Origin: Myxococcota bacterium
Lineage (GTDB): Bacteria; Myxococcota; B64-G9
NCBI GenBank assembly: GCA_022710975.1
Contig: JAKLGA010000013.1
Location: forward strand, 1 to 64,000
Direction of reading: 5' to 3'
DNA: 64,000 nt
In this document: positions 250-63,147 of the stretch, in pieces
How the letters are laid out: each line of letters opens with the position of its first letter
Position numbering within the stretch: position 1 is the first letter of the stretch
Made by a program: the position numbers and the translations under genes
The notes under the pieces: generated by a model
What the model was told of the DNA's origin: nothing
The model's input: only the letters and a program-made list of their open reading frames with translations
Database searches by the model: none

Positions 250-2379
250 ATGATCAGGCACACGATCCCCACGGCGATGCTCGGCGTCCTTCTCGGCCTC
301 GCTTGCTCCGCCTGCGGTCGGACCGGACCTGAGAACCCGGGCGGCGGGAGCCTGCTGCGGATCGAGTCCGAGCCGGCCGGTACGAACTGTCCCGAGGGCG
401 GTCTGGCCGTGCTCACGGGCCTCGACCAGGACGAGGACGGCGTCCTCGACGACTGGGAGGTCGCCTCGACCGACTACGTCTGCAACGGCCAGAGCGGCGA
501 GAACGGGCAAGACGGCCAGGACGGCCACTCCACCCTGATCGACACGGCCGACGAGCCACCCGGTGCGAACTGCCCCACCGGAGGTCTCCTCATCTCCACC
601 GGCCTGGATCTCGACGACGACGGAGTGCTCGAACCCGAGGAGGCCACGGCCACCGAGTACGTCTGCAACGGGGAGGATGGCGAGGACGGGCTGGCGAGCT
701 TGGTCTCGGTGATGGACGAGGCCGCGGGCGCGAACTGCACCGAGGGGGGGCAGGCGGTGCGTTCTGGCGTGGACTCGAACCGGGACGGGCTGCTCCAGCC
801 CGAGGAGGTCACCGCGACCGACTACGTGTGCAACGGAGCCACGGGGGCCGACGGCCAGCCCGGGCTCACCTCGCTCGTCCGCCAGGAAGACGCAGCTCCC
901 GGCGACTGTCCCTTCGAGGGACGGGTGGTGATGACCGGGCTCGACGAGGACGGGGATGGGTACCTGGACGACGAGGAGGTCAGGGCCACGAGCTACGTCT
1001 GCAACGGGGAGCCTGGGGCACCCGGCCACGCCAGCCTGTTCGAGCTCCTGGACGAGCCGGCGGGCGCGAACTGCCCTTCCGGCGGAACCCAGGTACAGAC
1101 GGGCCTGGACACGAATGACGACGGAGTCCTCGACCCGGGCGAGGTGATGGCGACGAACTACGTCTGCGACGGTGGGAATCTGGCCCTACGTGTGAGCAAT
1201 GCGGAGTGGGGTGGGGTGTGCCAGCGCGGTGGAGTGAAGGTCGAGACTGGGGTGGACGACAATGGGAACTGCGTCCTCGACGAACCCGAGGTGGACCAGA
1301 CGCAGTACGTGTGCAACTTGTTCCCGGTGCAAATCGATAGCGGCTCATACCACACCTGCGCCATTGTCTCGGACGGCACAGCCTGGTGTTGGGGAAGAAA
1401 TGTCAGCGGCCAGGTCGGCGACGGCACCACGATCCATTGTCCCCTCCCTGTGACCGTCAGCGGCCTCGCCCATGCGGTCGAAATCTCGGCAGGTTACGGG
1501 CACTCATGCGCCTTGCTCACGGATGGGACCGTGCAGTGTTGGGGGCTAAATCAAGCTGGCCAGCTTGGCGATGGGACCCCCATGAGCAGCCTCACACCTG
1601 TAGCTGTCAGCGGACTCGCCCTGGCAACCTCCATCTCGGCAGGCCAGTACCACACTTGCTCCGTGCTTTCGGATGGTACCGCGCGTTGCTGGGGCGCAAA
1701 CTGGGCCGGCCAGATCGGCGATGGAGCCAATATCAACCGCTATACACCTGCTGTGGTCACTGGCTTGTCCCAGGTCGCCGGAATCTCGGCAGGTTGGGAG
1801 AACACCTGCGCCTTCCTCGTCGGCGGCTCAGCGCTGTGCTGGGGAACGAACACATACGGCCAGCTCGGCGATGGGACGACGATCTCCAGCTTGGTGCCAG
1901 TATGGGTCAGCGGCCTCACCCAGGCGTCTGGAGTCTCGGCGAGCCTCCACCACGCCTGTGCCGTGCTTGCGGATGGGACAGCACGCTGCTGGGGGCGCAA
2001 TCAAGAGGGTCAGCTTGGTGACGGCACCTACAGCGAACACTGGACGCCAGTGGTGGTTGCTGGCCTGTCCCAAGCATCCAGGATCTCGACGGGCGAAAGA
2101 CATTCCTGTGCCCTGCTCATGGACGGCACCGCGCGCTGCTGGGGTGGTAATTCGGGGGGTCAACTCGGTGACGGAACGAGCACAGATAGGCCTATCCCTG
2201 TGGCAGTCGGAATACTCACTCAGACTTCCGCGATCTCAGCGGGTGAGTCTCATACCTGCGCCTTGGTATCTGATGGAACCGCTTATTGCTGGGGGCGGAA
2301 CGATTTTGGCCAGCTCGGCGACGGGACCATTTTAGGCCATCGAGATCCGACCCTGGTCCAATGGGCCTTCGCGCCATAG
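250..2379 (+). CDS. Lipoprotein with six EF-hand-like DUF7151 repeats and a seven-blade RCC1 propeller
   Basis: A predicted exported lipoprotein of 709 aa. A hydrophobic signal ends at a Cys pair near residues 19-22. Residues about 35-355 carry six repeats of the DUF7151 type (GxNC...GG...YVCNG), with short collagen-like GxxGxxG linkers. Each repeat holds a 12-residue loop laid out like a calcium EF-hand, for example DQDEDGVLDDWE and DEDGDGYLDDEE; the sixth (DDNGNCVLDEPE) is degenerate. Residues about 360-705 hold seven RCC1-type units, each with a CA...DGT..CWG core, enough for one closed seven-bladed propeller. The start at 250 follows GGGAGAGGGCA; an in-frame ATG at 232 is an alternative. 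The propeller half looks less GC-rich than the repeat half, suggesting a domain fusion. Its ligand is unknown. Confidence 0.85.
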   Translation: MIRHTIPTAMLGVLLGLACSACGRTGPENPGGGSLLRIESEPAGTNCPEGGLAVLTGLDQDEDGVLDDWEVASTDYVCNGQSGENGQDGQDGHSTLIDTADEPPGANCPTGGLLISTGLDLDDDGVLEPEEATATEYVCNGEDGEDGLASLVSVMDEAAGANCTEGGQAVRSGVDSNRDGLLQPEEVTATDYVCNGATGADGQPGLTSLVRQEDAAPGDCPFEGRVVMTGLDEDGDGYLDDEEVRATSYVCNGEPGAPGHASLFELLDEPAGANCPSGGTQVQTGLDTNDDGVLDPGEVMATNYVCDGGNLALRVSNAEWGGVCQRGGVKVETGVDDNGNCVLDEPEVDQTQYVCNLFPVQIDSGSYHTCAIVSDGTAWCWGRNVSGQVGDGTTIHCPLPVTVSGLAHAVEISAGYGHSCALLTDGTVQCWGLNQAGQLGDGTPMSSLTPVAVSGLALATSISAGQYHTCSVLSDGTARCWGANWAGQIGDGANINRYTPAVVTGLSQVAGISAGWENTCAFLVGGSALCWGTNTYGQLGDGTTISSLVPVWVSGLTQASGVSASLHHACAVLADGTARCWGRNQEGQLGDGTYSEHWTPVVVAGLSQASRISTGERHSCALLMDGTARCWGGNSGGQLGDGTSTDRPIPVAVGILTQTSAISAGESHTCALVSDGTAYCWGRNDFGQLGDGTILGHRDPTLVQWAFAP

Positions 2380-2427
2380 CGTCCTGATTGTCTGGGAACC
2401 GTCCCGATTATCACACTAGCAACTCGC

Positions 2428-2466
2428 GATCTCACCCGGGTGGGCGAAGCCCACCCGGATGAGATC
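2428..2466. terminator. Strong GAA-loop hairpin after the RCC1 gene
   Basis: An 18-bp stem with one mismatch closes on a GAA loop (arms GATCTCA-CCCGGGTGGGC and GCCCACCCGGA-TGAGATC). It lies about 50 bp after the stop of the RCC1 lipoprotein gene. No T-run follows, so a classical intrinsic terminator is not proven. It could instead be an mRNA-stabilising hairpin. Confidence 0.4.
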
Positions 2467-2509
2467 GCCGCCCGTGGATGTCCCCATGACAGGAGGGCGA
2501 CCCGGTCAC

Positions 2510-2575
2510 AGGCAACTTCACCATCAGAGAAACTCCTGAGAGAGCCAGGCACGGAAGGTCAGCAAGCGAGAAGCG
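2510..2575 (+). repeat. Dispersed intergenic element, right half (copy A)
   Basis: This stretch matches the right arm of the dispersed palindromic element (core GAGAGCCAGGCACGGAAGGT). It sits in the 313-bp gap before the next lipoprotein gene. Just upstream, 2488-2515 is identical over 28 bp to 8848-8875, which covers the 3' end of another lipoprotein gene. This gap therefore holds a relic of such a gene end plus half an element, and no gene. Confidence 0.6.
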
Positions 2576-2599
2576 TGGCTGATGTGGAGAGGTCATCGC

Positions 2600-2692
2600 C
2601 TGGCGCTGGCCGGGACCTTCTCACGTGGGCCATTTCCAGCTAGCATGAGGTGGACTGCTGAATGGCCTGGGACCTGGGTTCGGGAGGTGATC
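2600..2692 (+). promoter_or_regulatory. Leader cassette B upstream of a Cys-rich lipoprotein gene
   Basis: This leader closely matches the leader at 9838-9930. Shared blocks include GGCGCTGGCCGGG, CGTGGGCC, TTTCC and ATGAGGTGGA, ending in GGGAGGTG as ribosome site. A TAGCAT at 2641 sits where the other copy has TATGAT, so it may hold a -10 element. No clear -35 is visible. Confidence 0.4.
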
Positions 2693-4228
2693 ATGCGCGG
2701 GCGCTGGCTCGAAACCGTTCGGCTGGGGATCGGGCTCGCCATGCTGTGCCCGGCGGCGGCCTGCGACCGGGCGGACTCCTCCCCAGGCTGCCCGCCCACG
2801 CCCGTCTGCACGCCCAACGAGGTCGAGGAGTGCGCCTGCCTCCAGGATCACGTGGGCACCCGCGTGTGCGATTCGGACGGGTGCGGCTTCTCGGAGTGCG
2901 CCTGCTGCGCGCCGGACTGCTCCGGCCGGGAGTGCGGTCCGGACCCGGTCTGCGGCGTGTCCTGCGGGGAGTGCGCAGAGCACGAGGACTGCGGCGCCGA
3001 CGGGACGTGCGCCTGCCGCTGGCCGTGCGAGGAGGCCTGCTGCGGCCCGCACGAGCGCTGCGTGCGCGGCATGTGCGTGTTCGAGGAGGACTTTTGCCAC
3101 GGCCAGGACGAGTGTCCTTCGAACCTGGTCTGCTCCGCGGGTCGTTGCAGACCGGACTGCGTGCAGGATGCGGATTGCCCTGCGGATCAGGTGTGCAGTG
3201 GTGGCCGCTGCCAACCCGCGGCCTGCACCAGCCGCGAGGACTGTGCCGTCTTCGAGGGCTGCCGGGTGTGCGTGGATCAGGTCTGCCGTGCCGAACCACC
3301 TGTGTGCTCCGGCGACCGGGACTGCTGCGTGGGGCACCGCTGCAACTTCGGCGCCTGTGTCGAGGTCACTCCAGCCTGCGAACACGACTCGGACTGCCTG
3401 GACCCGGAGCTGCCGAGGTGCGTGGCTGGCTCCTGCAGGCCCGAGTGCGACCTGGACATCGGCTGCCCGCCCTGCGAGCACTGCGTCCTCGGCCACTGTG
3501 AGCGCTTCGGCTGCTACTCCCAGCCCTGCGACCCGGGCTTCTACTGCGACGCGACGACGTGCGGCTGCGTGCCCGGCTGCGACTCGGATGACGACTGCAC
3601 CCCGCCAGAGATCTGCAGGCTTCCCTCCCACGGATGCGGGTCCGACATCGACGATTGCTGCGGCAACGCCTGCCAGGCGCCCGCCACCTGCGACTCCCTG
3701 AGCTGCGCCTGCGCCGAGCCCTGCGTGCGGGGCGACTGCGTGTCCGGCGCCTGCAGCCTGTACCCCAACACCACCTGCGACGCGGCCTCCGGCAAGTGCG
3801 TGGCCTGCCCGGCGGGCTTCACCTGCGACGCGGCCACCGGCCAGTGCGTGTGCGCGGGGCCCTCCTGTCCGGCCAGCTCGACCTGCAACGCCACGACCGG
3901 CATGTGCGAGCCGGACCAGGGCATCTGCGACCCGACCTGCGAGACGCCGGAGGCCTGCAGCTTCTACGACGTGTGCGTGACCCCGGGCAGCGGCCAGGAC
4001 GGCACGCCATGCTTCTCCGACGCGGAATGCGATTCATCCCAGGGCCTCCTGTGCGACGGTTCCCTGTTCTGCATCGGCTGCATGACTGTGGACCCGACCT
4101 TCGCGCCCGGGTTCGTCTGCCGCGAGGAGTGCTCGCTGCTGATGGGCGGCTGCACGAACCCGGCCTACACCTGCAAGTACCGCCACACGGACCTGAAGGG
4201 CCTGTGCGTCCCCGAGGATGTGCCGTGA
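2693..4228 (+). CDS. Extremely cysteine-rich lipoprotein (about 92 Cys in 511 aa)
   Basis: A predicted lipoprotein with signal MRGRWLETVRLGIGLAMLC and a lipid-attachment Cys close to residue 24. The mature chain is an almost unbroken series of short loops such as DxDCPxxxxCxxGRC. My hand count gives about 92 cysteines, near 18 percent of residues. This implies a heavily disulfide-bonded or metal-binding extracellular protein. No enzyme domain is recognisable. The ATG at 2693 is preferred over an upstream in-frame start because GGGAGGTG precedes it and the signal peptide begins exactly there. Its signal peptide matches those of the genes at 4896 and 9931. The function is unknown; an adhesive or structural surface role is only a guess. 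Confidence 0.8.
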   Translation: MRGRWLETVRLGIGLAMLCPAAACDRADSSPGCPPTPVCTPNEVEECACLQDHVGTRVCDSDGCGFSECACCAPDCSGRECGPDPVCGVSCGECAEHEDCGADGTCACRWPCEEACCGPHERCVRGMCVFEEDFCHGQDECPSNLVCSAGRCRPDCVQDADCPADQVCSGGRCQPAACTSREDCAVFEGCRVCVDQVCRAEPPVCSGDRDCCVGHRCNFGACVEVTPACEHDSDCLDPELPRCVAGSCRPECDLDIGCPPCEHCVLGHCERFGCYSQPCDPGFYCDATTCGCVPGCDSDDDCTPPEICRLPSHGCGSDIDDCCGNACQAPATCDSLSCACAEPCVRGDCVSGACSLYPNTTCDAASGKCVACPAGFTCDAATGQCVCAGPSCPASSTCNATTGMCEPDQGICDPTCETPEACSFYDVCVTPGSGQDGTPCFSDAECDSSQGLLCDGSLFCIGCMTVDPTFAPGFVCREECSLLMGGCTNPAYTCKYRHTDLKGLCVPEDVP

Positions 4229-4269
4229 GCTCCGTCCGCGGATGACCGACAGGTGCGAAGAGTAAGTTG

Positions 4270-4440
4270 TGCGTTTGCCGATCGTCCGTGTGCTTCCACT
4301 CCGGACAGTTCCTCGAGGGCAGAAGCCGAAGGGCCCCGAAACGAAACCCGGCGGCCCGCCTGGGCAACCTCCCCTCCTGCATTCACCCTCAAAGAAACTC
4401 CGAAGAGAGCCAGGCACGAAAGGTCTGCCAGCGAACGGTA
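4270..4440 (+). repeat. Dispersed intergenic palindromic element (copy B)
   Basis: A full-length copy. The left arm contains TTTGCCGATCGTCCGTGTGC and the right arm GAAACTCCGAAGAGAGCC. The two arms are imperfect inverted repeats of each other around a variable centre. It fills most of the 304-bp gap between two plus-strand genes, in which I see no gene. Confidence 0.65.
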
Positions 4441-4532
4441 TGGGTGGGTGCGGGCTCAGCGCCGCGCCAGTCCAGGACCGGTCCTTGCGCTTCGGGCCGC
4501 TCCGTAGGAAACTCTGTCGCAGGGGTCGTACC

Positions 4533-4844
4533 ATGCACTGGCTGAAGCACTTCGCGGGGATGCTGTTCGTCACGGCGCTGGTCGCGGCCTCGCCGGGGTG
4601 CGGCCAGGAGCCCGACTGCACTGCCGCCGCCGAGAAGCTCGAGGGCTGCGGCCTGGGCTCGTTCGCCGACCACTACGAGCTCAGGGGCGGCGCCTGCGAG
4701 GAGACCAGCGCCTGCATCGCCGACTGCGTGTGCGAACGGAGCTGCGCCGAGATCGAGGGAACCATCACGACGGCCGACTGGAACCAGCACCTGTTGTGCG
4801 GCCACGAGTGTCCGCAGATCACGCTGTGCTCCGGTCCGCTCTGA
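4533..4844 (+). CDS. Small Cys-containing lipoprotein, unknown function
   Basis: A 103-residue predicted lipoprotein. The signal MHWLKHFAGMLFVTALVAA runs into SPGC, the likely lipidated Cys. The mature part of about 80 residues has regularly placed cysteines (CERSC, CGHEC, CxADC), so a compact disulfide fold is likely. The ATG at 4533 is chosen because the signal peptide starts there and AGGGG lies upstream. The next gene begins 51 bp downstream on the same strand, so co-transcription is possible. No family is recognised. Confidence 0.7.
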   Translation: MHWLKHFAGMLFVTALVAASPGCGQEPDCTAAAEKLEGCGLGSFADHYELRGGACEETSACIADCVCERSCAEIEGTITTADWNQHLLCGHECPQITLCSGPL

Positions 4845-4895
4845 GGCTGGGGGCTACTCGATCGACGGCCTGTCGATGGAATCTGAGGGGTGGTC

Positions 4896-5954
4896 GTGCG
4901 CGGGCGCTGGCTCGACACCGTTCGGCGGGGAGTCCTGGTCGGCCTAGCCTGCCTCGGCGCAGGCTGCGGCGGAGGCGGGGGACCATGCTGGCAGGAAGGC
5001 GCCCTCTGCTTTCCCGTTCCGCCGACGGGTCAGTCAGCGTGCTACGACAACGAAGGGTCCATCGCTTGCCCCGGAGAAGCGGGCGACCCGACCTGTGGAT
5101 CGACGCCCTTCTGCGGGCAAGACGCCCAGCAGGGGCGCGCACCCAGGACGTTCACCGTCCAGGCCGTCGGCGATGAACGCGTGGTCATGGACTCCCTGAC
5201 CGGGCTCATCTGGCAGCAGGCATTTGTCGGCGAAAAGACGGTGCAGGAGGCGCTCGACCTCTGCAGCGACCTCGTCTACGCCGGCGAAGACGACTGGAGG
5301 CTACCGGACTACCACGAGATCGCTGGCATCGCTGACTACGGTCGCCACTCGCCAGCCATCGACACGGCGGCCTTCCCTGGGACACCCGGCGATTGGTTCT
5401 GGTCCTCTTCCCCCTACCACTACCAGGCGATCGACTGGAGCGTCGAAGGTGTCTTCGACGTGGACTTCGTGGATGGCTCCGTGGAATTTGGCGACGAGGT
5501 CGACAGCCTCGAGCACGTTCGCTGCGTGCGGGGCGAACAGATCGTCGTCCAGGGATCGGATCGCTTCGTCGTGTCTGGTTCTGCAAACGATGAGGTGGTG
5601 CGGGACAGGGCCACCGGGCTCAGGTGGCAGAAAGAAGAAGTCCCCCTGAAGACCTGGGAGCAGGCGCTCGTCACATGCGAGGGCCTTTCCCTCGGAGGTC
5701 ATGACGACTGGAGGCTTCCCGACATCAACGAGCTCCGGAGCCTGGTCAATCCGAAGACGGTCGTGCCGGCCTCGGATTTTCCGGGTATGTCCTCGGACTG
5801 GTTCTGGTCATCTTCCTCCAGCGTAGCACTCGCCAGCGAAGCTTGGGGCATCGCCTTCGGCGTGGGCAATGTGACCACGCTGGACAAGACCATCGATTGC
5901 CAGGAGGGCTGTGCCTACCCTGTGAGCGTGCGGTGTGTTCGGGGCGTTCCGTGA
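4896..5954 (+). CDS. DUF1566 (Lcl C-terminal-like) lipoprotein
   Basis: A predicted lipoprotein of 352 aa with signal VRGRWLDTVRRGVLVGLACL. Two tandem units follow, each with the pattern DxxTGLxWQ...W...DDWRLPxxxE...WFWSSS...VRCVRG. This is the signature of the DUF1566/Lcl_C family, found in many exported bacterial proteins of unclear role. The units span about residues 85-210 and 215-350. The GTG at 4896 is preferred to the GTG at 4890 because it aligns with the homologous signal peptides at 2693 and 9931, and GAGGGG precedes it. It shares its signal peptide with Cys-rich proteins although its mature domain is unrelated and Cys-poor. Confidence 0.85.
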   Translation: MRGRWLDTVRRGVLVGLACLGAGCGGGGGPCWQEGALCFPVPPTGQSACYDNEGSIACPGEAGDPTCGSTPFCGQDAQQGRAPRTFTVQAVGDERVVMDSLTGLIWQQAFVGEKTVQEALDLCSDLVYAGEDDWRLPDYHEIAGIADYGRHSPAIDTAAFPGTPGDWFWSSSPYHYQAIDWSVEGVFDVDFVDGSVEFGDEVDSLEHVRCVRGEQIVVQGSDRFVVSGSANDEVVRDRATGLRWQKEEVPLKTWEQALVTCEGLSLGGHDDWRLPDINELRSLVNPKTVVPASDFPGMSSDWFWSSSSSVALASEAWGIAFGVGNVTTLDKTIDCQEGCAYPVSVRCVRGVP

Positions 5955-6007
5955 GACCTCCCGCTGTGTCTGTCTTGCTCCTGCCGCGGAGACCTGGTGC
6001 AGGTGGC

Positions 6008-6175
6008 TGAAGGCCGGGCGTTTGCAGATCGCCCGTGTGCCCCCACTCCAGGCATTTCTTCGAGGGTAGAATCGGGAAAGGCCTTTCTACCGCGTGAGGC
6101 CTGCTCCCCTCCTGCCTTCACCTTACAGGAAACTCCGAAGAGAGCCAGGCACGGAAGGCCTGCCAACGATCGGCG
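6008..6175 (+). repeat. Dispersed intergenic palindromic element (copy C)
   Basis: A full copy between convergent genes. The left arm carries GTTTGCAGATCGCCCGTGTG, the centre is GC-rich (CCTTTCTACCGCGTGAGG), and the right arm carries GAAACTCCGAAGAGAGCC. The arms are imperfect inverted repeats of about 50 bp, so the transcript could fold as a long hairpin. Confidence 0.7.
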
Positions 6176-6189
6176 GACAGGGTGCGGGC

Positions 6190-8571
6190 TCAGCGCCTCG
6201 CGCAGGCCGGCAGGTAGGACACGAAGCCCGGGCGCACGTCCACGCGGATGGCCTGGCAGGAGTAGGTGTCCGTGGGCTCGCAGTCGGCGTCCGTCACGCA
6301 GGCCCGGGTGCAGTACTCGAGGCCCGGACCGCCCTCGCCCTCGATCAGGCAATGCCCGCTCCAGCAGACCTCCTCACCCGCCTCGCAGTTCGCGCCGAGC
6401 TGGCCGGTGCCCGGACCGCCCGCGTCGCACACGTAGACCGCGGCGGTGGCGGTCGAGTTGGCATCCAGCCGACAGGCCTCGCCAGCGCGGCAGTCCGCGT
6501 CGAGGGCGCAAGGGCGTCTCTCCGGCATGCACAGGTTGGTCGTGTCGTACACCGGCTGGCCCGAGGCGTCGTCGCCCAGGTAGAAGGCGTACGTCGTGCA
6601 GCCGAACACCCGCCGGCACAGGCCTGCCTCGCACAGGGTGCCGAGCTCGCAGGTGGCGTCGGCCCCGCAGGCCGTGGCGGTGTCGAAGGTGGGACAGTCG
6701 GCGTCCGAGACGCACACCCCCAGGCAATAGCCCCAGTTCCCGCACCACACGGAAAAGCAATCGGTCGGGCCAGCGCACGCCTCGCCCGTGTTGTCGTGTC
6801 CGGGGCCGGACCCGTACTGGCACTCTGTGACGAGCGACAAACCGTCCGCGTCGAGGAACACCTGGCAGGAGCGGCCAGCCGGGCAGTCGGCGTTCCGTCC
6901 ACAGGCGTCCGGATCCGGATCGCGCACGCAGGCGGTCAACTCGTGCGCGCCGCCGCCGAGGTCCTGGACCATCACCAGCCCGCACTCCGAGCCCTGCACG
7001 CAGTCGAGGGAGTCCAGGCAGAGCTCCGAGCAGCGGCCTTCGTTCCCGCCGGTGCAGAGCTCTGCGCCGCACAGGCACAGGCCGGTCTCGCACTCGGAGC
7101 CCTGCGTGCAGGCCAGACCGGCCGGGGCACCATCGGGGTTGGGCTGGAGGCAGACCGCGAGCACGTCGTCGAGGGTCGGGCGGAAGGAGCAGACCCTCGA
7201 TGGCGCGCAGTCGGGGGTGCGGCGGCAGGCGGTCTCCCCGGCGTTCACCGGGGTGCAGCTCCGGATGGAACCGGTCACCCCTTCCAGGGTGTAGGGCACG
7301 TCCTGGCACGAGGTCCCCAGGTAGCCCGCGCAGTCCAGGTCGTCCACGCACACGGCGCCGCAGGCGTGGTCCACGCACAGGGAGTTCGCGCACAGCAGGC
7401 CCGCCTCCTCGTCGCAGTAGGCCCCGGGCTCACGGCCCCCGGGGAGGATCCGGACGCAGCGAGTCGCCAGCACTACATCGTCCACCACCACGCCGCACAG
7501 CTCGCCCGTGGCCACGCAGACCGGATCCCGGTGGTAGGTGCAGGCCGCGCCCAGTTCCAGGCGCTCCAGGATGAAGGAGCACTGGGGCGAGCACACGATC
7601 CAGAAGGGGGTCGTCAGGCTGGCCTTCCCGTGGCAAGGGAAGCCCAGGCCGCCGCACTCCACGTACAGGTTGAGCCGCGCGTCGAGCCGGCCCGTGCAGA
7701 TCGCGTACAGGGAGAAGGTGATCGCGCAGCCGGCCTGGTCGATCACGACGGCCCCGATGTTTTCGCCAAGGCAGTAGGGGGTGATGTCGTAGGTGCCCGA
7801 GAGGTCGGGGCAGGTCTCGATCGGCTCGCACAGGCCCTGCGGGCTGCAGCGCGCGGCGTGCCCGCAGGTCCCGCAGCTCCTGCCGAGGCAAGGATCCGGC
7901 CCGCACTCCAGGCCCTCACAGCAAGGCGCCTCGACGCAGTGGCCCGATTCACTGCACTGCTCACCCTCCGCGCAGGTGCCGCAACTCCCCCCACAGCCGT
8001 CGTACCCGCACTCCTGCCCCGTGCAGTCCGGGCAGCACTGCCACTCGCACCAGCCCCGGTCGACGATGCAGCGCTCCGGGGCGGGCTCTCCGGCGCAGTC
8101 CAGGCAGTCGCCGCAGCTCCCACCGCAGCCGTCGTCTCCGCACTCCTTGTTCGTGCAATCAGGCGCGCACATGCACTGGCCGTTCGCCTGGCACAGCTCG
8201 CCCACGCCGCACTCCCCGCAGCTCCCCTGGCAGCCGTCGTCCCCGCACTCCCTGGCGTCGCAGGCTGGTGCACAGCCTGGCTGACACTGACCCCCTGGAT
8301 CGCAGCTCTCGCCCGGCGGGCACGCGCCGCAGGTCTGCCCGCAGCCGTTGTCCCCGCACTCCTTGCCCGCGCAGTCCGGGGCGCACACGCAGTAGTGGTT
8401 CGCGTCGCAGAGCTGATCCGGCTGGCATCCGCCGCAGCTCCCCCCGCAGCCGTCGTCGCCGCACTGCTTACCGGTACAGGTAGGGACGCAGGGATCGGGC
8501 TGCGACTTCGAATCACAGCCGGCGAGGACTCCAGCGACGACCAGCCCGAGGATGGCGATCCTGATCTGCAT
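6190..8571 (-). CDS. Large Cys-rich lipoprotein with CGDDGCGG repeats (paralogue of 10823-13225)
   Basis: A predicted lipoprotein of 793 aa with signal MQIRIAILGLVVAGVLAGC. Roughly the first 250 mature residues are repeats of about 20-35 aa built on CGDDGCGGSCGxC. A segment starting CPDLSGTYDITPYC and a long Cys-rich C-terminal part follow. From about CPDLSGTYDI to the end it is collinear with the 800-aa protein at 10823-13225, and both end PACARR. The ATG at 8571 is chosen over the ATG six bases upstream because GGGAGGGATGGGA gives good spacing and the signal peptide begins MQ. The function is unknown. A 140-bp internal block is identical to the paralogue at DNA level. Confidence 0.8.
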   Translation of the reverse strand: MQIRIAILGLVVAGVLAGCDSKSQPDPCVPTCTGKQCGDDGCGGSCGGCQPDQLCDANHYCVCAPDCAGKECGDNGCGQTCGACPPGESCDPGGQCQPGCAPACDARECGDDGCQGSCGECGVGELCQANGQCMCAPDCTNKECGDDGCGGSCGDCLDCAGEPAPERCIVDRGWCEWQCCPDCTGQECGYDGCGGSCGTCAEGEQCSESGHCVEAPCCEGLECGPDPCLGRSCGTCGHAARCSPQGLCEPIETCPDLSGTYDITPYCLGENIGAVVIDQAGCAITFSLYAICTGRLDARLNLYVECGGLGFPCHGKASLTTPFWIVCSPQCSFILERLELGAACTYHRDPVCVATGELCGVVVDDVVLATRCVRILPGGREPGAYCDEEAGLLCANSLCVDHACGAVCVDDLDCAGYLGTSCQDVPYTLEGVTGSIRSCTPVNAGETACRRTPDCAPSRVCSFRPTLDDVLAVCLQPNPDGAPAGLACTQGSECETGLCLCGAELCTGGNEGRCSELCLDSLDCVQGSECGLVMVQDLGGGAHELTACVRDPDPDACGRNADCPAGRSCQVFLDADGLSLVTECQYGSGPGHDNTGEACAGPTDCFSVWCGNWGYCLGVCVSDADCPTFDTATACGADATCELGTLCEAGLCRRVFGCTTYAFYLGDDASGQPVYDTTNLCMPERRPCALDADCRAGEACRLDANSTATAAVYVCDAGGPGTGQLGANCEAGEEVCWSGHCLIEGEGGPGLEYCTRACVTDADCEPTDTYSCQAIRVDVRPGFVSYLPACARR

Positions 8572-8640
8572 TCCCATCCCTCCCGTAGGATCCGTCTCCA
8601 GCTTCCACCCACCGGTGCCCACCGCGCAAGGCCCCGAGGC
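8572..8640 (-). promoter_or_regulatory. Leader cassette A (copy 1)
   Basis: Read on the minus strand, this leader contains GGTGGGTGGAAGCTGGAGAC and ends GGGAGGGATGGGA before the ATG. It matches the leaders of five other genes in the window. No clear -10/-35 pair is visible. Confidence 0.45.
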
Positions 8641-8659
8641 TGAAGTGTGGCCACTGCGA

Positions 8660-8822
8660 ACCAGGGCCGGGCGTTTCCCGATCGTCCGTGTGCCACCACT
8701 CAGGGCAGTTCCTGGAGGGTCGAAGCAGAGGGCCTTTCTACCGCGTGGGGCTTGCTCCCTCCTGCCTTCACCTTAATAGAAACTCCGAAGAGAGCCAGGC
8801 ACGGAAGGTCACCGAACGATCC
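8660..8822 (+). repeat. Dispersed intergenic palindromic element (copy D)
   Basis: A full copy with left arm GATCGTCCGTGTGCCACC and right arm GAAACTCCGAAGAGAGCC. It lies between two minus-strand lipoprotein genes and fills most of the 294-bp gap. Confidence 0.65.
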
Positions 8823-8865
8823 CCGGCGGAAGCTGCTGGCCCCGCGAGACAGGAGGGCGACCCGG

Positions 8866-9555
8866 TCACAGGCAAGCGCAGTCCAGGCAGGGGGTGCAGC
8901 AAGCGCGCACAGGGTCGCAGGTGAGGTACACGCCGCAGGCGGCGCAGTCCGCATCGCTCGCGCAGCTCTCGACCCCGCAGCCCTGGCACTCTCCGAGCGC
9001 GCACAGGCCATCCTCCGGACCGAGGTACAAGCCCACACCGCAGGGGCGGCCGTCACAGTCGGCCCGGTCCTCGCAGTCGGTGTTCCCGTCGCCGTCGTCG
9101 TCCCGGTGATCCCCGCAGTCCACCTCGACGCCGCCCTGTGCGCAGCCCTCCGCGGTGCAGGCCTGCCCCGCGGCGCAGTCGGCGTCGGTGACGCACGAGC
9201 ACCAGCGCGGATCTCCGGGCTCGGTGCAGGCGTGGTTGGTGGTCCGGTGAGGACACTCGCACGGGCCGCAGTGGCCGCAGAAGTTAATTGGGAAACCCCA
9301 GGCGCAGCGCCCACCCGGGCAGTCCTGGTTCCTGCCGCAGTGGCCGCTCGGCGGGTAGCAGCCCAGCACGCAGGTGTCCGGGTCGCGGGCGTCGATGCAG
9401 GCGTAGTCGCAGTAGTCCTGGCAGGACTGATCCGGCGGGCAGTCGGCGTCGGTCCGGCACGTGTCGCCCGACTCCTCGTCGCAGCCAGGAAGGTGAGCGA
9501 GCGAGAAGAAGAGCAGCGTGAGCAAGCCCGCTATGAGAATCCCGAGCCCCCGCAT
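8866..9555 (-). CDS. Cys-rich lipoprotein (paralogue of 56090-56794)
   Basis: A predicted lipoprotein of 229 aa. The signal MRGLGILIAGLLTLLFFSLA ends at HLPGC. The mature protein shares its full layout with the protein at 56090-56794: TDADCPxxQSCQxYC, then PSGHCGxNxDC, a GDxRxCxCxxxADCAxGQxC segment, CxxDxxxDxxxDCxDRAxC, and the C-terminus CCTPCLDCACL. The acidic stretch with regularly spaced Asp could bind a cation. The start follows GGAGGTCGGGGAC. Divergent from the gene at 9931. The biochemical role is unknown. Confidence 0.8.
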   Translation of the reverse strand: MRGLGILIAGLLTLLFFSLAHLPGCDEESGDTCRTDADCPPDQSCQDYCDYACIDARDPDTCVLGCYPPSGHCGRNQDCPGGRCAWGFPINFCGHCGPCECPHRTTNHACTEPGDPRWCSCVTDADCAAGQACTAEGCAQGGVEVDCGDHRDDDGDGNTDCEDRADCDGRPCGVGLYLGPEDGLCALGECQGCGVESCASDADCAACGVYLTCDPVRACCTPCLDCACL

Positions 9556-9647
9556 GTCCCCGACCTCCGTATGGTGGAGCCGCCTGCAACTCCCAGACTA
9601 CCAGCGCCTACCGCAGCCGACAAGGCTGGCCTCCTCGAGCGCTGGGC

Positions 9648-9822
9648 CGGACGTTTGCCGATCGTCCGTGTGCATCCACCCCGGGCAGTTCCTCGAGGGT
9701 AGAAGAAGAAGGACCTCGATGCGAGGCAGCCTGGAGGTGCAAGCTCCCCTCCTGCCTTCACCTTAAAAGAAATTCCTGAGCGCTCAGGCACGGAAGGTCT
9801 GCCAACGAACGGTTTGGGTTGG
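9648..9822 (+). repeat. Dispersed intergenic palindromic element (copy E)
   Basis: A full copy in the divergent gap (9556-9930). Left arm TTTGCCGATCGTCCGTGTGC; the right arm contains a perfect 14-bp palindrome CCTGAGCGCTCAGG (9775-9788) followed by CACGGAAGGTCTGCCAACG. No gene is visible in this 375-bp gap. Confidence 0.65.
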
Positions 9823-9837
9823 TGCGAGCTCAACGCC

Positions 9838-9930
9838 CGGCGCTGGCCGGGTTCTTCTTCCGTGGGCCCTTTCCGGCTATGATGAGGTGGATTGCTCGAT
9901 GTCCCTGGGACGTGGGTCCGGGAGGTGGTC
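9838..9930 (+). promoter_or_regulatory. Leader cassette B (second copy) with possible -10
   Basis: Near-match to 2600-2692. TATGAT at 9878-9883 fits a -10 box and TTCTTC 17 bp upstream is a weak -35. It ends in GGGAGGTGGTC just before the GTG start. Confidence 0.4.
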
Positions 9931-10731
9931 GTGCACGGTCGCTGGCTCGACACCGTTCGGCTGGGAGTCCTGGTCGGCCTAGCCTGCCTCGCCGCGGCCT
10001 GCGGCGGAGGCGAAGGAGGAACCGACGGCGGAGAGGACGGAGTTGGGGACGGAGATGGCGGGGAGTGTCCGACCACCTGCTCGCTCGTCCAAGACTGCTG
10101 CGTTGGCGAGGAGTGCCATCAGGGCACCTGCGCGCCCGTGGGCTCCTGCCCGACCGGCTGCAACGAGCTGTGCGACAGGACCGCCGATGAGGTCTGCGAT
10201 CAGGGCACCATGCGCTGCGTCCAGGGCTCCCCCCCAGCGACCTGCCAGTCCGGATGCGATTGCTACGCAGGGGAGTCATGTGCCCTCGGTGTGTGCGCGC
10301 CGACCTGCGAGGACCACGCGGACTGCCCCGCTGGCCAGTACTGCCTGCAACACGGCTGCCGGGTGGTCTCTTGCCAGACGCTCCTCGACTGCCGGGTAGG
10401 GGGCCCGTGCCTGGTGTGCAAGGACCAGGTGTGTGTACCCCAACCGTCCCGCTGCGCGGGCCCGGAAGACTGCTGCCTGGGGACGGACTGCTATGGCGAC
10501 ACGTGCCAGCATCGAGATGGCTGCATGGTCGACGGCGATTGTGTGGAGCAGGACCTCCCTTACTGCGTCGGCGGCTACTGCGTGCCCGCAGCCTGCACTC
10601 TCGAGACCTGTCCACTGCTCTACTGGTGCAACCCTGAGACAGGGCGCTGTCTCGAGGGGTGCGACGAGGACCTGGACTGCCTGGTCGACCGGCGCTGCGA
10701 TCTCGACACCCACGACTGCGTCCCGAGGTGA
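9931..10731 (+). CDS. Cys-rich lipoprotein (signal-peptide cassette B)
   Basis: A predicted lipoprotein of 266 aa starting at a GTG. Its signal VHGRWLDTVRLGVLVGLACL parallels those at 2693 and 4896. After a Gly/Asp-rich spacer (GGGEGGTDGGEDG) come about 200 residues of Cys loops, including DCCVGEECHQGTC, CEDHADCPAGQYC and CxVCKDQVC. The last two patterns also occur in the protein at 2693-4228, so the mature parts are homologous over part of their length. The start is fixed by GGGAGGTGGTC and by alignment with the two relatives. The role is unknown. Confidence 0.8.
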   Translation: MHGRWLDTVRLGVLVGLACLAAACGGGEGGTDGGEDGVGDGDGGECPTTCSLVQDCCVGEECHQGTCAPVGSCPTGCNELCDRTADEVCDQGTMRCVQGSPPATCQSGCDCYAGESCALGVCAPTCEDHADCPAGQYCLQHGCRVVSCQTLLDCRVGGPCLVCKDQVCVPQPSRCAGPEDCCLGTDCYGDTCQHRDGCMVDGDCVEQDLPYCVGGYCVPAACTLETCPLLYWCNPETGRCLEGCDEDLDCLVDRRCDLDTHDCVPR

Positions 10732-10732
10732 A

Positions 10733-10800
10733 ACTCCCCTCCTGCCCTCACCCCAAAGAAATTCCGAAGTGAGCCAGGCATGGAAGGTCATCAAACGAAT
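10733..10800 (+). repeat. Dispersed intergenic element, right half (copy F)
   Basis: Only the right half is present (CCTCCTGCCCTCACC, then GAGCCAGGCATGGAAGGTCA). It occupies the short gap between convergent lipoprotein genes. Confidence 0.6.
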
Positions 10801-10822
10801 AGCGTAGCTGCCTGAGTATAGT

Positions 10823-13225
10823 TCATCGTCTTGCGCAGGCCGGGACGAAGGACACGAAGCCGGGCCGTACGTCGACCCGGATGGCCTGGCAGGAGTAGGT
10901 GTCCAGGGGCACGCAATCGACGTCCGTCACGCAGGCCTTCGAGCAGTAGGATCCACCGCCGGCCGCGTCGGGGAGGCACACACCGGTCCAGCAGGCGCTG
11001 GCGCCGATGGAGCAGTCCGCGCCGAGCGTACCCGAGCCCGGGCCGCCCGCGCTGCACTCGAGCACCACCCCGCTGGCCGCACGGTCGAGCTCCTGCCGGC
11101 AGGCCTCGCCCGTGCGGCAGTCCACGTCGCGGGAGCAGGGGCGCTGCTCCGGCTCGCAAAGTTGGATGGTGTCGACCAGGGGCTGGCCTGGTTCGCAGAA
11201 CTCCAGCTCGAACACCTCGGTCCCGCACCGGAAGCGGCGCTCGCAGGCGCCTGACTGGCACAGGAACCCGGGCTCGCAGCCGACGTCGTGCTCGCAGGCC
11301 GTGCCGGCCTCGAAGGTCGGGCAGTCGGCGTCCTCGACGCACCCGCCCAGACAGTAGCGCTCCGGGCTGCACCAAGAGGAAAAACAGTCGGAGGGGACGA
11401 CGCACGGGGTGCCGTCATCGGGAAAACCGGGGCCGGAGCTTATCTGGCATTCCCCCACCAGGGAACATCCACCCGCGTCGAGGAACACCTGGCAGGAGTA
11501 GCCGGCCGGGCAGTCCACGTGGCGCTGACAGTCGAACCAGGGGGGGCCGAAGACACAGGCCGTCACCTCGCGGGGGGTTCCGCCGAGATCCTCCACGACG
11601 ACCGGCCCGCACTCCGCGGCCAGCCCGCAGTCGAGGGAGTCCAGGCAAGGCTCCGAGCAGCGGCCTTCGTCCCCACCAGTGCAGGGCTCCGCGCCGCACA
11701 GGCACAGGGCCGTCTCGCACTGGCCGCCCTGCGTGCAGTGACCTCCGGCCGGCAAGCCACCCGGATTGGGCAGCAGGCAGACCGAGAGCACGCCGTCGTC
11801 GGTCGCGCGGAAGGAGCAGACCCTCGATGGCGCGCAGTCGGGGATGCGGCGGCAGGCGGTCTCCCCGGCGTTCACCGGGGTGCAGCTCTGGACAGATCCA
11901 TGGATGGTAACGAAGCCCGCATCCAGGGCGTAGGGCACGCTCTGGCAGGCGGTTCCCTGGTAGCCCACGCAGTCCAGGTCGTCCACGCACACGGCGCCGC
12001 AGGCGTGGTCCACGCACAGGGAGTTCGCGCACAGCAGGCCCGCCTCCTCGTCGCAGTAGGCCCCGGGCTCACGGCCCCCGGGGAGGATCCGGACGCAGCG
12101 AGTCGCCAGCCCTCCATCGTCCAACACCACGCCGCACAGCTCGCCCTCGGCCGTGCAGACCGGATCCCTGTGGGAGGTGCAGGCCGCGCCCAGCTCCAGG
12201 CGCTCGAAGATGAAGGAGCACTGGGGCGAGCACACGATCACGAAGGAGGTCGTCAGGCTGACCTCGCCGTAGCAGGGGAAGCCCAGGCCGCCGCACTCCA
12301 CGTACAGGTTGAGCTGCGCGTCGAGCCGGCCCGTGCAGTAGATCGCGTCCAAGGTGAAGGCGATCGCGCAGCCGGTCTGGTCGATCACGATGTCGCCGAT
12401 GTCCCCCCCAAGGCAGTAGGGGGTGATGTCGTAGGTGCCCGAGAGGTCGGGGCAGGCCGCCGGCACCTCGCACAGCCCCTGGGCCGTGCAGGCCTCGGGC
12501 GGGAGGCAGGTGCCGCAGGAGGCGCCGCACACGGGGTCGAGGCCGCACTCCTGGAGCCCGCAGACCGGGCAGCAGGCCTCCAGGCAGGTCCCCTCGTCGC
12601 ACAGGATGGGGTGCGCGTTGCCCAGGCAGTCGAGGCACTCGCCGCAGCTCCCGTTGCAGCCGTCGGGTCCGCACGTCTTGCCCGCGCAGTCCGGGACGCA
12701 CTCGCACAGGCCCTGCGCGCCGCAGGTCGTGGGCGCAGCGCAGGTCCCGCAGGAGGTGCCGCACACGGGATCCGGCCCGCACGCACGCCCCAGGCAGTCC
12801 GGACAGCACTGCTCCTGGCATTGGCCCGATCCGGGCTGGCAGAGCCACGGGGCCGGCTCTCCGAAGCAGTCCAGGCAGTCGCCGCAGCTCCCCACGCAGC
12901 CGTCGCTGCCGCAGTCCTTCCCCGTGCAGTCCGGGACGCACTCGCACCGCCCCCGGAAGTTGCAGAACTCGGACGCGGCGCACGTCCCGCAGCTCCCCCC
13001 GCAGCCGTCGTCGCCGCACATCCTGCGGAAGCAGCTGGGATAGCAGCACTGGCATGGGCGCCAACCGCTCCCGTCGGACAGGCAGGTCATCTCGCCAGAA
13101 GCTGCCCCGGCGCAGGTGCAGCTCGCACGCTGCCCCGGGTCGCACACCTTCCTTGCCTCGTCGCAGCCTGCGAGCAGACCGGCCAGGAGGAGCGCAGAAG
13201 TCAACGCCCGTCGCTTCAATCTCAT
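10823..13225 (-). CDS. Large Cys-rich lipoprotein, last gene of a four-gene operon
   Basis: A predicted lipoprotein of 800 aa. The signal MRLKRRALTSALLLAGLLAG precedes the lipid Cys. An N-terminal third of CxPxC...CGxDGCxGSCGxC and DPVCGxSCGTC repeats is followed by the CPDLSGTYDITPYC segment and a Cys-rich C-terminal region. It is collinear with the 793-aa protein at 6190-8571 from that segment to the shared C-terminus PACARR. It starts 9 bp after the stop of the preceding minus-strand gene, so it is the fourth cistron of a run that begins at 17834. The function is unknown. Confidence 0.8.
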   Translation of the reverse strand: MRLKRRALTSALLLAGLLAGCDEARKVCDPGQRASCTCAGAASGEMTCLSDGSGWRPCQCCYPSCFRRMCGDDGCGGSCGTCAASEFCNFRGRCECVPDCTGKDCGSDGCVGSCGDCLDCFGEPAPWLCQPGSGQCQEQCCPDCLGRACGPDPVCGTSCGTCAAPTTCGAQGLCECVPDCAGKTCGPDGCNGSCGECLDCLGNAHPILCDEGTCLEACCPVCGLQECGLDPVCGASCGTCLPPEACTAQGLCEVPAACPDLSGTYDITPYCLGGDIGDIVIDQTGCAIAFTLDAIYCTGRLDAQLNLYVECGGLGFPCYGEVSLTTSFVIVCSPQCSFIFERLELGAACTSHRDPVCTAEGELCGVVLDDGGLATRCVRILPGGREPGAYCDEEAGLLCANSLCVDHACGAVCVDDLDCVGYQGTACQSVPYALDAGFVTIHGSVQSCTPVNAGETACRRIPDCAPSRVCSFRATDDGVLSVCLLPNPGGLPAGGHCTQGGQCETALCLCGAEPCTGGDEGRCSEPCLDSLDCGLAAECGPVVVEDLGGTPREVTACVFGPPWFDCQRHVDCPAGYSCQVFLDAGGCSLVGECQISSGPGFPDDGTPCVVPSDCFSSWCSPERYCLGGCVEDADCPTFEAGTACEHDVGCEPGFLCQSGACERRFRCGTEVFELEFCEPGQPLVDTIQLCEPEQRPCSRDVDCRTGEACRQELDRAASGVVLECSAGGPGSGTLGADCSIGASACWTGVCLPDAAGGGSYCSKACVTDVDCVPLDTYSCQAIRVDVRPGFVSFVPACARR

Positions 13226-16496: not shown

Positions 16497-17834
16497 CTAC
16501 GGCACCGGCCGGCAGTAGCAGTTTCCGCTCTCGGTGATGGGTTCGAAGCCGGTCGCACAGGCGTCGTCGATGCACTGCGCGGCGCAATAGGAAGCCCCGC
16601 AGCCGCCGTTCACGCAGTCAGGATTCCGACTCCCGGGCAAGAAGGCCGAGCAATCGGCATCGGAAGCGCACGGCATGTTCACCGGATCCTCCGACTCGCC
16701 GAGGCAGGCCAGGCCTGAATCGCACTCCATCGGGCAGCCCGGGTTGTTGATGTCTTCGAAAGTGCATGGTTCGCCGGAAGACTGTGCTCCGGTAATGAAG
16801 AACATTGGAATGCAATAACAGGTACCGGACACATCTGCTGGGGTGAAGAGCCCCTCACACCCCCCATCAGTGCATGGTACCGAGCAGAAGGAGTAGCCAC
16901 AGCTTCCACCCACGCAGTCGAGGTTGAAGTTCCAGGGACCAAGAACACAGCAGTCGACGGCATCCGAGCAAGACGAGACCTCGGGATTGGGCGCCATGCC
17001 GAGGCAAGTCAGCCCTGCGAGGCATTCGCCAGCACCGAGGTTCACCTCGCCGAAGGCGCAGGGTTCGCCGGGCTGCAGCTCCGTGGAGACGCAGCGGCCC
17101 ACGTAGTCGCAGACGGTGCCTTCCGGGCAGGTGCCGCACACGTCGGTGCCACAGACCGGATCCACGCCGCACTCCAGGTCGCCGCAGTCGCCGCAGCACT
17201 CACGCATGCAGACATGCCCGTTGCACATGTCCGGGGCCGGCTCGCCGTGGCACGTCTCGCACTCGCCGCAACTGCCGCCGCAGTCATCCGTGCCACATTC
17301 CCTCCCCGCGCAGTTCGGGACGCACACGCACTGGCCGCTCGCGTCGCACTGCCCGCCCTCCAGGCAGGTGCCGCAAGAAGTCCCGAAACACGGATCCGGG
17401 CCACAGATCCGACCCTCGCAGCAGGGCACCTCGAGGGTCTCGCACAGGCCCTGGGCGGTGCACTGCTCGCCCACCCCGCAATCCCCGCAGCTCCCCAGGC
17501 AGCCGTCCTCCCCGCACTCCTTGTTCGTGCAATCGGGCGCGCAAACGCACTGGCCGTTCGCCTGGCACAGCTCGCCTGCGCCGCAGGTGCCGCAGCTCCG
17601 GCCGCAGCCGTCGTCCCCGCACCATCTGCCGGCGCAGCTCGGGACGCACGTGCAGCTCCCGGTCTCCTCGTCGCACACCTCGTCCGAGGGGCAGGCGCCG
17701 CAGCTCTGGCCGCACAAGGAGTCGATCCCGCACTGCCTGCCTTCGCAGGCCGGGATGCAGAGGTCGGACTTCGAGTCGCAGCCGGCGACCAAGGCGGCGA
17801 GGAGAATCCCGAGGATGGCGGTCTTGACCTGCAT
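16497..17834 (-). CDS. Cys-rich lipoprotein, first gene of the four-gene operon
   Basis: A predicted lipoprotein of 445 aa with signal MQVKTAILGILLAALVAGC. The first 240 mature residues are CGDDGCGRSCGTCG-type repeats, including DPVCGTDVCGTC. Two copies of the ~90-residue repeat follow (GEPCAFGEVN...CYCIP and GEPCTFEDIN...CYCRP). Its signal and leader match those at 8571, 54841, 57079, 61170 and 63220. The start at 17834 follows GGGAGGGATGGGT; the ATG six bases upstream is the less likely choice. It probably carries the promoter for the next three genes, which follow at 14, 20 and 9 bp. Confidence 0.8.
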   Translation of the reverse strand: MQVKTAILGILLAALVAGCDSKSDLCIPACEGRQCGIDSLCGQSCGACPSDEVCDEETGSCTCVPSCAGRWCGDDGCGRSCGTCGAGELCQANGQCVCAPDCTNKECGEDGCLGSCGDCGVGEQCTAQGLCETLEVPCCEGRICGPDPCFGTSCGTCLEGGQCDASGQCVCVPNCAGRECGTDDCGGSCGECETCHGEPAPDMCNGHVCMRECCGDCGDLECGVDPVCGTDVCGTCPEGTVCDYVGRCVSTELQPGEPCAFGEVNLGAGECLAGLTCLGMAPNPEVSSCSDAVDCCVLGPWNFNLDCVGGSCGYSFCSVPCTDGGCEGLFTPADVSGTCYCIPMFFITGAQSSGEPCTFEDINNPGCPMECDSGLACLGESEDPVNMPCASDADCSAFLPGSRNPDCVNGGCGASYCAAQCIDDACATGFEPITESGNCYCRPVP

Positions 17835-17905
17835 ACCCATCCCTCCCGGAGGATCTGTTCCTAGCTTCCACCCATTGGAACCCGTGGGGCAAGGGAGGGG
17901 GCAGG
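17835..17905 (-). promoter_or_regulatory. Leader cassette A (copy 2), probable operon leader
   Basis: On the minus strand this reads TTGCCCCACGGGTTCCAATG, then GGGTGGAAGCTAGG, then GGGAGGGATGGGT and the ATG. It is nearly identical to the leader at 63148-63219 and likely carries the 5' end of the four-gene operon transcript. The remaining bases up to the ORF6N gene at 18128 hold nothing further I can name. Confidence 0.45.
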
Positions 17906-18664: not shown

Positions 18665-18735
18665 CCTTTCCTCCTGGTTTCACCCCACAAGAAACTCCTG
18701 AGCGCTCAGGCACGGAAGGTCGGCCAACGAATCGT
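18664..18735 (+). repeat. Dispersed intergenic element, right half (copy G)
   Basis: The right half only, directly abutting the stop of the ORF6N gene. It contains the perfect palindrome CCTGAGCGCTCAGG (18697-18710), as in copy E, then CACGGAAGGTCGGCCAACG. Confidence 0.6.
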
Positions 18736-54768: not shown

Positions 54769-54840
54769 CCTGCCTCCAGGTCTTGCCCCACGGGTTTCAA
54801 CGGGTGGAAGCTGGAGACAGATCCTCCGGGAGGGATGGGC
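54769..54840 (+). promoter_or_regulatory. Leader cassette A (copy 3)
   Basis: TCTTGCCCCACGGGTTTCAA, then GGGTGGAAGCTGGAG and CCGGGAGGGATGGGC before the ATG. It matches the other leaders almost base for base. Confidence 0.45.
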
Positions 54841-56073
54841 ATGCAGGTCCGATCCGTCGTCCTCGGGATTCTCCTCGCTGGCCTCCTCGGTGGATGCGAC
54901 TCGCAGTCCGAGCGGTGTATCCCCGCCTGCGAGTTCAGGCAATGCGGGGACGACGGCTGCGGGGGGAGCTGCGGGGAGTGCGTATCTCCCGCGTCCTGCA
55001 ACCCCGACGGCCTGTGCCAAGGCCACTGGAACAACAGTTGCATGACGTCCGAGGATTGCGAGAGCGGCTTGTGCTTTCGCTACTCCGACGGCACGGGCTA
55101 CTGCTCCACGCGCGGTTGCCTGGACAACGACGACTGTGTGAACTACGCCGAGGGCGAGACGGCCGAGATGTGCTGCGTGGACGTGGGCGGCGACTTCAAG
55201 GTCTGTCTGAAGATCGACCCCGGCTACGCCTGCGGCAACCAGGACAAGACCTGCGGCCAGTCCTGCCTGGGCCAGGTGGACTCGGCCTGCGATCCCAACC
55301 ACACCTGCCTGAGCGGCGCGGACGTGTACTGCTCGCACACCTGCGTCACCAACACGGACTGCAGCGACTGCCAGGCCGAAGACCCGGACACGACGTTCCA
55401 GTGCTGGTTGATCGGCGGCGGTGACTCCTACTGCATCGCGGCGAACTCCGCCACCTGCACCGCCTCCTCCCACTGCGACGCGGGCGAGGCCTGCTCCCCG
55501 TACATCGACGAGACCGGCCAAGCGTTGAAGGGCTACTGCGTCTCCGGCGGCACGCTGACGGCCGGCGCCGAGTGCGACGAGGACGACGACCAGTGCATGG
55601 GCATGTGCATCGAGGGGCACTGCTCCGAGGTTTGCGCGACCGACGGCGACTGCCCGGTGCAGGGGACCTGCACGGTGGTCAGCTTCTGCAAGACCACTGA
55701 GGGCACCGGCGACTGCGCCTCCTGCGCCGAGTCCTTCCCGGACATCGCGATGTGCCTCTGGCCCCCGTTCGGGACCCTGTCGGCCGGCGCGCCCTGCGCG
55801 GGGGGCGGCGTCCTCTTCCGCGCGGACCCATGCCAGGCGGGCCTGACCTGCCTGGACTTCGATCTCGCCGATCCGCCCTGCGCGACCGTCGAGGACTGCA
55901 CCGCGCTGATCCCCGGGAGCTGGAACGTCGGGTGCGTGCCGGGTGCCTGCGGCGTCCCGAGCCACTGCGCCGCTTCTTTCTGCTCCAGCCGCTGTGACCT
56001 CGCCGGTGGCTGCGAGCAGGGCTTCGTGCCCATCGATCGAGCTGGCGACTGCTACTGCGCTCCGAGCCCGTAG
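54841..56073 (+). CDS. Cys-rich lipoprotein (partial paralogue of 61650-62843)
   Basis: A 410-residue predicted lipoprotein with signal MQVRSVVLGILLAGLLGGC. The N-terminal part has CGDDGCGGSCGECV and a unique CSTRGCLDNDDC loop. From MCCVDVGGDFKVCLKI to the C-terminus it is collinear with the 397-residue protein at 61650-62843, and near-identical in DNA in places. One diverged ~90-residue repeat ends the protein (...WNVGCVPGACGVPSHC...CYCAPSP). The paralogue uses an unrelated signal peptide. The next gene starts 17 bp downstream. Confidence 0.8.
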   Translation: MQVRSVVLGILLAGLLGGCDSQSERCIPACEFRQCGDDGCGGSCGECVSPASCNPDGLCQGHWNNSCMTSEDCESGLCFRYSDGTGYCSTRGCLDNDDCVNYAEGETAEMCCVDVGGDFKVCLKIDPGYACGNQDKTCGQSCLGQVDSACDPNHTCLSGADVYCSHTCVTNTDCSDCQAEDPDTTFQCWLIGGGDSYCIAANSATCTASSHCDAGEACSPYIDETGQALKGYCVSGGTLTAGAECDEDDDQCMGMCIEGHCSEVCATDGDCPVQGTCTVVSFCKTTEGTGDCASCAESFPDIAMCLWPPFGTLSAGAPCAGGGVLFRADPCQAGLTCLDFDLADPPCATVEDCTALIPGSWNVGCVPGACGVPSHCAASFCSSRCDLAGGCEQGFVPIDRAGDCYCAPSP

Positions 56074-56794: not shown

Positions 56795-56839
56795 CCGGGT
56801 CGTCCTTCTTTCCGCGTGGCCAGCCGCTCCCGCCGAGGG

Positions 56840-57000
56840 CCGTTCTGCGACCTTCCGTGCCTTCCTCTCTTCGGAGTTTCTTCGAAGGTGAAGGCAGGAG
56901 GGGCCAGGCCCCACGCGGTAGAAAAGCCTTTCACCGATTTTGCCCTCGAAGAAATGCCCGGAACGAGAGCACGCGGACGATCGGCAAACGCCCCGCCACA
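56840..57000 (-). repeat. Dispersed intergenic palindromic element (copy I, inverted)
   Basis: A full copy in the opposite orientation: GACCTTCCGTGCCTTCCTC, then TTCGAAGGTGAAGGCAGG, a central CCACGCGGTAGAAAAGCC and the arm GGACGATCGGCAAACGCCC. It fills most of the gap between two plus-strand lipoprotein genes, so element orientation is not tied to transcription. Confidence 0.65.
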
Positions 57001-57007
57001 TGCGGGC

Positions 57008-57078
57008 CTTGCCTCCAGGCCTTGCCCACGGGTTCCAATGGGAGGAAGCTGAAGACAGATCCTCCGGGAGGGATGGGA
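57008..57078 (+). promoter_or_regulatory. Leader cassette A (copy 4)
   Basis: GCCTTGCCTCCAGGCCTTGC, then CACGGGTTCCAATGGGAGG and CCGGGAGGGATGGGA before the ATG. Confidence 0.45.
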
Positions 57079-61096: not shown

Positions 61097-61169
61097 CCTT
61101 GCCTCCAGCCCTTGCCCCACGGGTTCCAATGGGTGGAAGCTGGAATCAGATCCTCAGGGAGGGATGGGA
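61097..61169 (+). promoter_or_regulatory. Leader cassette A (copy 5)
   Basis: GCCTTGCCTCCAGCCCTTGC, then CCCACGGGTTCCAATGGGTG and CAGGGAGGGATGGGA before the ATG. Confidence 0.45.
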
Positions 61170-63140: not shown

Positions 63141-63147
63141 TGCGGGC

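Follow-up and report, generated by a model that had tools for sequence, protein, structure and literature searches.

A 143-bp block that is identical in two Cys-rich lipoprotein genes of a Myxococcota bacterium, p1 and p2, most probably arose by recent ectopic (non-allelic) gene conversion between these directly oriented genes. Within a larger recombinant segment, the block is the patch that looks youngest; the sharing of tracts extends across the gene family. The window that we analyzed is a stretch of 64,000 nucleotides, which with its continuation makes up contig C5 of the source genome; two relatives of p1 and p2 in the same genome, c8 and c29, are found on contigs C8 and C29. The genes, the block and the segment around it are located as follows.

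6193-8577, minus strand: p1, Cys-rich lipoprotein gene, 795 aa (open reading frame and translation)
10826-13225, minus strand: p2, paralogue of p1, 800 aa, with its own lipobox and N-terminal part (open reading frame and translation)
7329-7471, minus strand: exact 143-bp tract in p1, coding for about LATRCVRILPGGREPGAYCDEEAGLLCANSLCVDHACGAVCVDDLDC (sequence comparison)
11968-12110, minus strand: the same 143-bp tract in p2, identical to the p1 copy (sequence comparison)
6990-7814, minus strand: central segment of p1, about 820 bp, in which p1, p2 and c8 are all about 90% identical
11617-12456, minus strand: central segment of p2, the counterpart of the p1 segment, about 820 bp plus small insertions

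According to their translations, both proteins have a LAGC lipobox, followed by Cys-rich repeats of the CGDDGC type and then by a Cys-rich C-terminal domain of about 540 aa that opens with CPDLSG and closes with ACARR. The genes p1, p2 and c8 are full-length open reading frames, each with its own start, signal peptide and lipobox, and it is the lipobox that suggests a surface location and role for lipoproteins of this type. Searches of Pfam and NCBIfam gave no match for p1 or p2, a PDB profile search gave a single weak match (E 0.37), and the AlphaFold model built from a three-row alignment has a mean pLDDT of 36. In the C-terminal domain, c8 is 86% and c29 is 67% identical to p1 at the amino acid level; contig C12 of the same genome contains two distant copies of the domain, and four further genomes from the same taxonomic family also have it (39-46% aa identity). 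A scan of a genome collection with the p1 sequence alone as the query returned zero matches, and the same scan with the alignment as the query returned one clear relative (a 'Myxococcales bacterium' MAG) and two weak ones. The relatives in other genomes and c29 have in common a different architecture, in which the N-terminal half is unlike that of p1, p2 and c8; in c29 this half carries the PF11617 (MopE-type) metal-binding motif, which a Pfam search did not find in p1 or p2. We infer that the c29-type architecture is the older one, and in p1, p2 and c8 the C-terminal domain may have been placed on a borrowed CGDDGC-type front.

An earlier note on this DNA had reported a 140-bp identity between 7331-7470 and 11970-12109; all 140 positions do match, and the maximal exact match extends to 143 bp with zero mismatches. 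The two copies occupy equivalent places in genes that share a strand and are 4.6 kb apart. The sharp contrast with the surroundings described in the same note holds for the N-terminal CGDDGC part, where p1 and p2 are 61% identical, but not for the sequence close by. The block sits inside a 417-bp patch (7283-7699) of 93% p1/p2 identity, which is itself part of the central segment, where identity is about 88-91%; only beyond this segment, whose 5' border is the start of the CPDLSG domain, does it drop to about 60-70%. The identity profile is therefore uneven across the paralogues and not uniform.

The nearest relative of p1 is c8 outside the central segment and p2 (100%) in the block. Over the N-terminal part and the last third of the gene, identity between p1 and c8 is mostly 0.88-0.98 (less at the extreme 5' end), and that of p2 to either of them is mostly 0.5-0.8. 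Within the block, c8 differs from the common p1/p2 sequence at seven sites, six of them nonsynonymous. When these sites are polarised by the outgroup c29, which differs from p1 at 25% of the bases in the block, p1 and p2 prove to share a derived state at four of them, and the other three are changes on the c8 branch, which carry no weight for conversion. An identity of this kind could also be created during assembly or polishing, if the consensus of one gene were copied onto the other. Two features are in keeping with such an artefact: the tract is about as long as a short read, and the genome is a draft (7.13 Mb in 29 contigs) in which the copies form near-repeats. However, p1 is colinear with c8 on either side of the block, which argues against a mis-joined assembly of p1, and similar tracts elsewhere in the genome keep small differences (97.7-98.2% identity), as would be the case for biological exchange followed by mutation. 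We regard an artefact as very improbable.

Run statistics of the GENECONV type, which the earlier note had proposed, place the block beyond chance. The longest run of agreement between p1 and p2 includes 40 polymorphic sites (7471-7335) and was unmatched in 20,000 permutations with four sequences; the four-sequence test confined to the central segment gave p = 5e-5. The result is weaker when only p1, p2 and c8 are compared in the central segment (p = 0.024), a version of the test that has fewer polymorphic sites and in which the longest run is 7814-7766 and not the block. None of the 37 synonymous sites in the block differs between p1 and p2. A run test on silent sites gave p = 0.0095 with c29; with three sequences it had no signal (p = 0.99), the number of variable silent sites being too small. 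The divergence between p1 and c8 is 4.9% in the block (7/143) as compared to about 12% alongside, and therefore part of the p1/p2 identity may be due to a low local rate. This slower rate and the p value of just 0.024 in the three-sequence test are consistent with a single older exchange of about 820 bp, after which a low local rate, together with chance, would have left the block unchanged. Against this, about 7.8 differences would be expected between p1 and p2 even after scaling to the slower p1-c8 rate and zero are seen (P about 4e-4), the four shared derived sites join p1 and p2 against c8, and there is no slow block in c29 or in the homologues from other genera, in which 55-62% of the residues differ. 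A single older exchange is, in our estimation, unlikely.

The choice between conversion and strong constraint, both of which had been offered at the outset as explanations of the block, falls to conversion. The switch of the nearest relative and the shared derived sites support it, while c8, c29 and the distant homologues speak against a local constraint on protein or DNA (a binding site, an RNA element or an antisense gene) that would preserve the block. Amino acid identity between p1 and the homologues from other genera is 38-45% over the block and 34-46% over the sequence immediately upstream of it, so the equal conservation in distant species that would have told against conversion is absent; because these homologues conserve the block no more than its neighbours, constraint is refuted and conversion favoured. 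The one observation on the side of constraint is a long antisense ORF facing p1 on the opposite strand. Antisense ORFs are usual at a GC3 of about 0.91, the value that we computed here. Changes at codon position 2 are not reduced, contrary to what antisense coding would produce, and this rules it out as the source of the odd codon-position pattern. With the differences in c8 and c29, most of the former nonsynonymous, and zero matches in an Rfam search of the window, we consider the survival of the block through constraint to be extremely improbable.

The central segment also stands out for its rate of amino acid change. Estimated by the method of Nei and Gojobori, for which the strong GC3 bias makes absolute values uncertain, dN/dS between p1 and c8 is 0.23 in each flank and 1.04 in the central segment, and it is about 1 in this segment among p1, p2 and c8. 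In 7472-7814 the p1-c8 value reaches 2.3 (36.5 nonsynonymous vs 5.5 synonymous changes). Region 7329-7814 contrasts strongly with the flanks (Fisher p = 5e-7); neutrality is exceeded by a modest margin (p = 0.02, for a region picked after inspection). Although 83 of the 275 aligned positions in the central segment vary, 0 of the 32 cysteines have changed, and the chance of such sparing is 4e-6. The central segment may be under diversifying selection, or under relaxed constraint with retention of the disulphides.

Tract sharing is not limited to p1 and p2. Using a threshold of at least 90 bp of ungapped sequence with at least about 85% identity, we counted 42 patches in selected regions of contigs C5 and C8, most of them linking lipoprotein genes or their leaders; exact matches were also covered on C29, C24, C1 and C12. 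Three further features of the window belong here.

55840-56003, plus strand: second tract, 164 bp, 98.2% identical to 62610-62773, with 0 synonymous differences in 40 sites
62610-62773, plus strand: partner of the 55840-56003 tract (patch comparison)
63008-64000, plus strand: mosaic lipoprotein gene, starting at about 63058 or later and running past the end of the window (patch matches)

Another block-sized pair is formed by C8:11290-11462 and C8:13728-13900, and both of these further tracts (164-173 bp; 97.7-98.2%) have three to four nonsynonymous and zero synonymous differences each. The mosaic gene (about 63058-64986) begins with a leader like those of the genes at 16497-17840 and about 61140, followed by a segment resembling the gene at about 57058. 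Next come 729 bp at 96% identity to C8:10241-10969, after which identity falls to 51-87%, and at the 3' end the gene at about 57058 and the C8 gene are matched again. From these matches, the gene appears to have at least three parents. The mosaic gene and the recurrence of such tracts within the family also count in favour of conversion as the origin of the block.

Several observations were made in passing. The upstream region and signal peptide (MGMQ..AILGILLAGLLAGCDSKS) are about 77-94% identical among genes with differing downstream parts, with copies at 8490-8640, 17767-17894, 54802-54954, 57011-57146, 61101-61240 and 63151-63301 and more on C8, C1 and C24. In two other small Cys-rich genes, located at 8866-9555 (minus strand) and 56090-56794 (plus strand), the 3' ends share a 117-bp patch of 90% identity (8858-8974 and 56686-56802), which makes them another locally homogenised pair. 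The gene at 169-2379, which by eye has collagen-like Gly repeats followed by RCC1-like repeats, contains an 809-bp patch (523-1331) that is 91% identical to C8:23445-24253 with a pN/pS of 0.11; the two clusters thus share more than lipoprotein genes. Regions C1:822000-841000 (1440-8832) and C24:10000-25000 (895-8647) form a paralogous region of about 7-8 kb, in which tracts of 490 and 335 bp match exactly, and include genes that by eye are DnaN-like (DNA-polymerase-clamp-like) and MoxR-like ATPase genes.

An intergenic repeat is also associated with these clusters, and two of its copies are located on either side of p1.

6012-6173, plus strand: intergenic repeat downstream of p1 (repeat comparison)
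8665-8819, plus strand: intergenic repeat upstream of p1, in the same orientation as at 6012 (repeat comparison)

The repeat is up to about 170 nt long with a conserved core of about 55 nt (TCCTGC-CTTCACC...AGAAACTCC...CAGGCACGGAAGGTC). It has 22 matches in the genome, mostly on C5 and C8 near lipoprotein genes, and an Rfam search with it gave zero matches. The remaining copies in the window are at 2507-2572, 4272-4461, 9645-9835, 10725-10799, 18670-18731 and 56849-56997. The gene c8 likewise lies between direct copies (C8:15056-15183 and C8:17720-17854), and the direct repeats around p1 and c8 could have aided duplication of the unit.

These data are best accounted for by ectopic conversion of short patches, between neighbouring genes as well as across clusters; the conversion step is read from the pattern of matches. 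The agent would be ordinary homologous recombination (RecA-type). An earlier event would have made a larger piece of the central segment, about 820 bp, common to p2 and the p1/c8 lineage. Exchange would later have started in this segment, already about 90% identical, with about 150 bp copied one way between p1 and p2, in either direction. The likely effect of such exchange would be to bring segments into new combinations within a group of Cys-scaffold lipoproteins that are anchored at the surface and change rapidly at residues other than cysteine. That these dispersed lipoproteins constitute a dedicated diversification system, in which conversion across two clusters and selection for amino acid change between fixed cysteines yield a surface repertoire that varies and might serve to recognise other cells or to avoid phages, seems doubtful to us.

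Taken alone, the block represents ordinary gene conversion, a process known from other bacteria; the mosaic, fast-changing lipoprotein family is of more interest than the single tract, and we found no report in the open-access literature of gene conversion in this family. In the antigenic-variation systems pilE/pilS, vlsE and TprK, gene conversion exchanges segments between surface-protein paralogues on a conserved scaffold. The p1-type genes resemble these systems in exchanging segments among surface-protein paralogues with a conserved scaffold, but no promoterless silent cassettes were seen for p1, p2 and c8, and the lineage is not a known pathogen. All three genes are complete, with a signal peptide and lipobox, and hence give no sign of a cassette system fed by silent donors. 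Two findings rule out a diversity-generating retroelement: a search of the genome for a reverse transcriptase gave zero RVT_1 matches, and the substitution spectrum of the central segment is mixed and not adenine-specific.

Among myxobacteria, the SitA proteins of Myxococcus are modular lipoproteins with a shared N-terminal part and varying C-terminal parts (PMC8546572). The p1 and p2 proteins are likewise modular lipoproteins in Myxococcota, but their C-terminal part is the 540-aa Cys-rich domain, and searches of Pfam and NCBIfam found no SitA-type C-terminal toxin domain in either. The kin-recognition receptor TraA is a polymorphic myxobacterial cell-surface protein with Cys-rich repeats (PMC6372800), and its likeness to p1 and p2 is only one of general type. 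Ectopic conversion is known between the rRNA operons of E. coli (PMC8022953), and concerted evolution has been described in prokaryotes (PMC6053082). The genes analyzed here share with such cases the short identical patches between paralogues, the sharp borders and the discordant relationships. They differ in that the exchange is limited to patches of lipoprotein genes that change fast, so the outcome is mosaics and not whole copies that stay alike. The exchange of segments between paralogues for surface proteins is best known from pathogens, and a mosaic, Cys-conserving lipoprotein family in Myxococcota would offer another setting in which conversion and selection diversify the cell surface.
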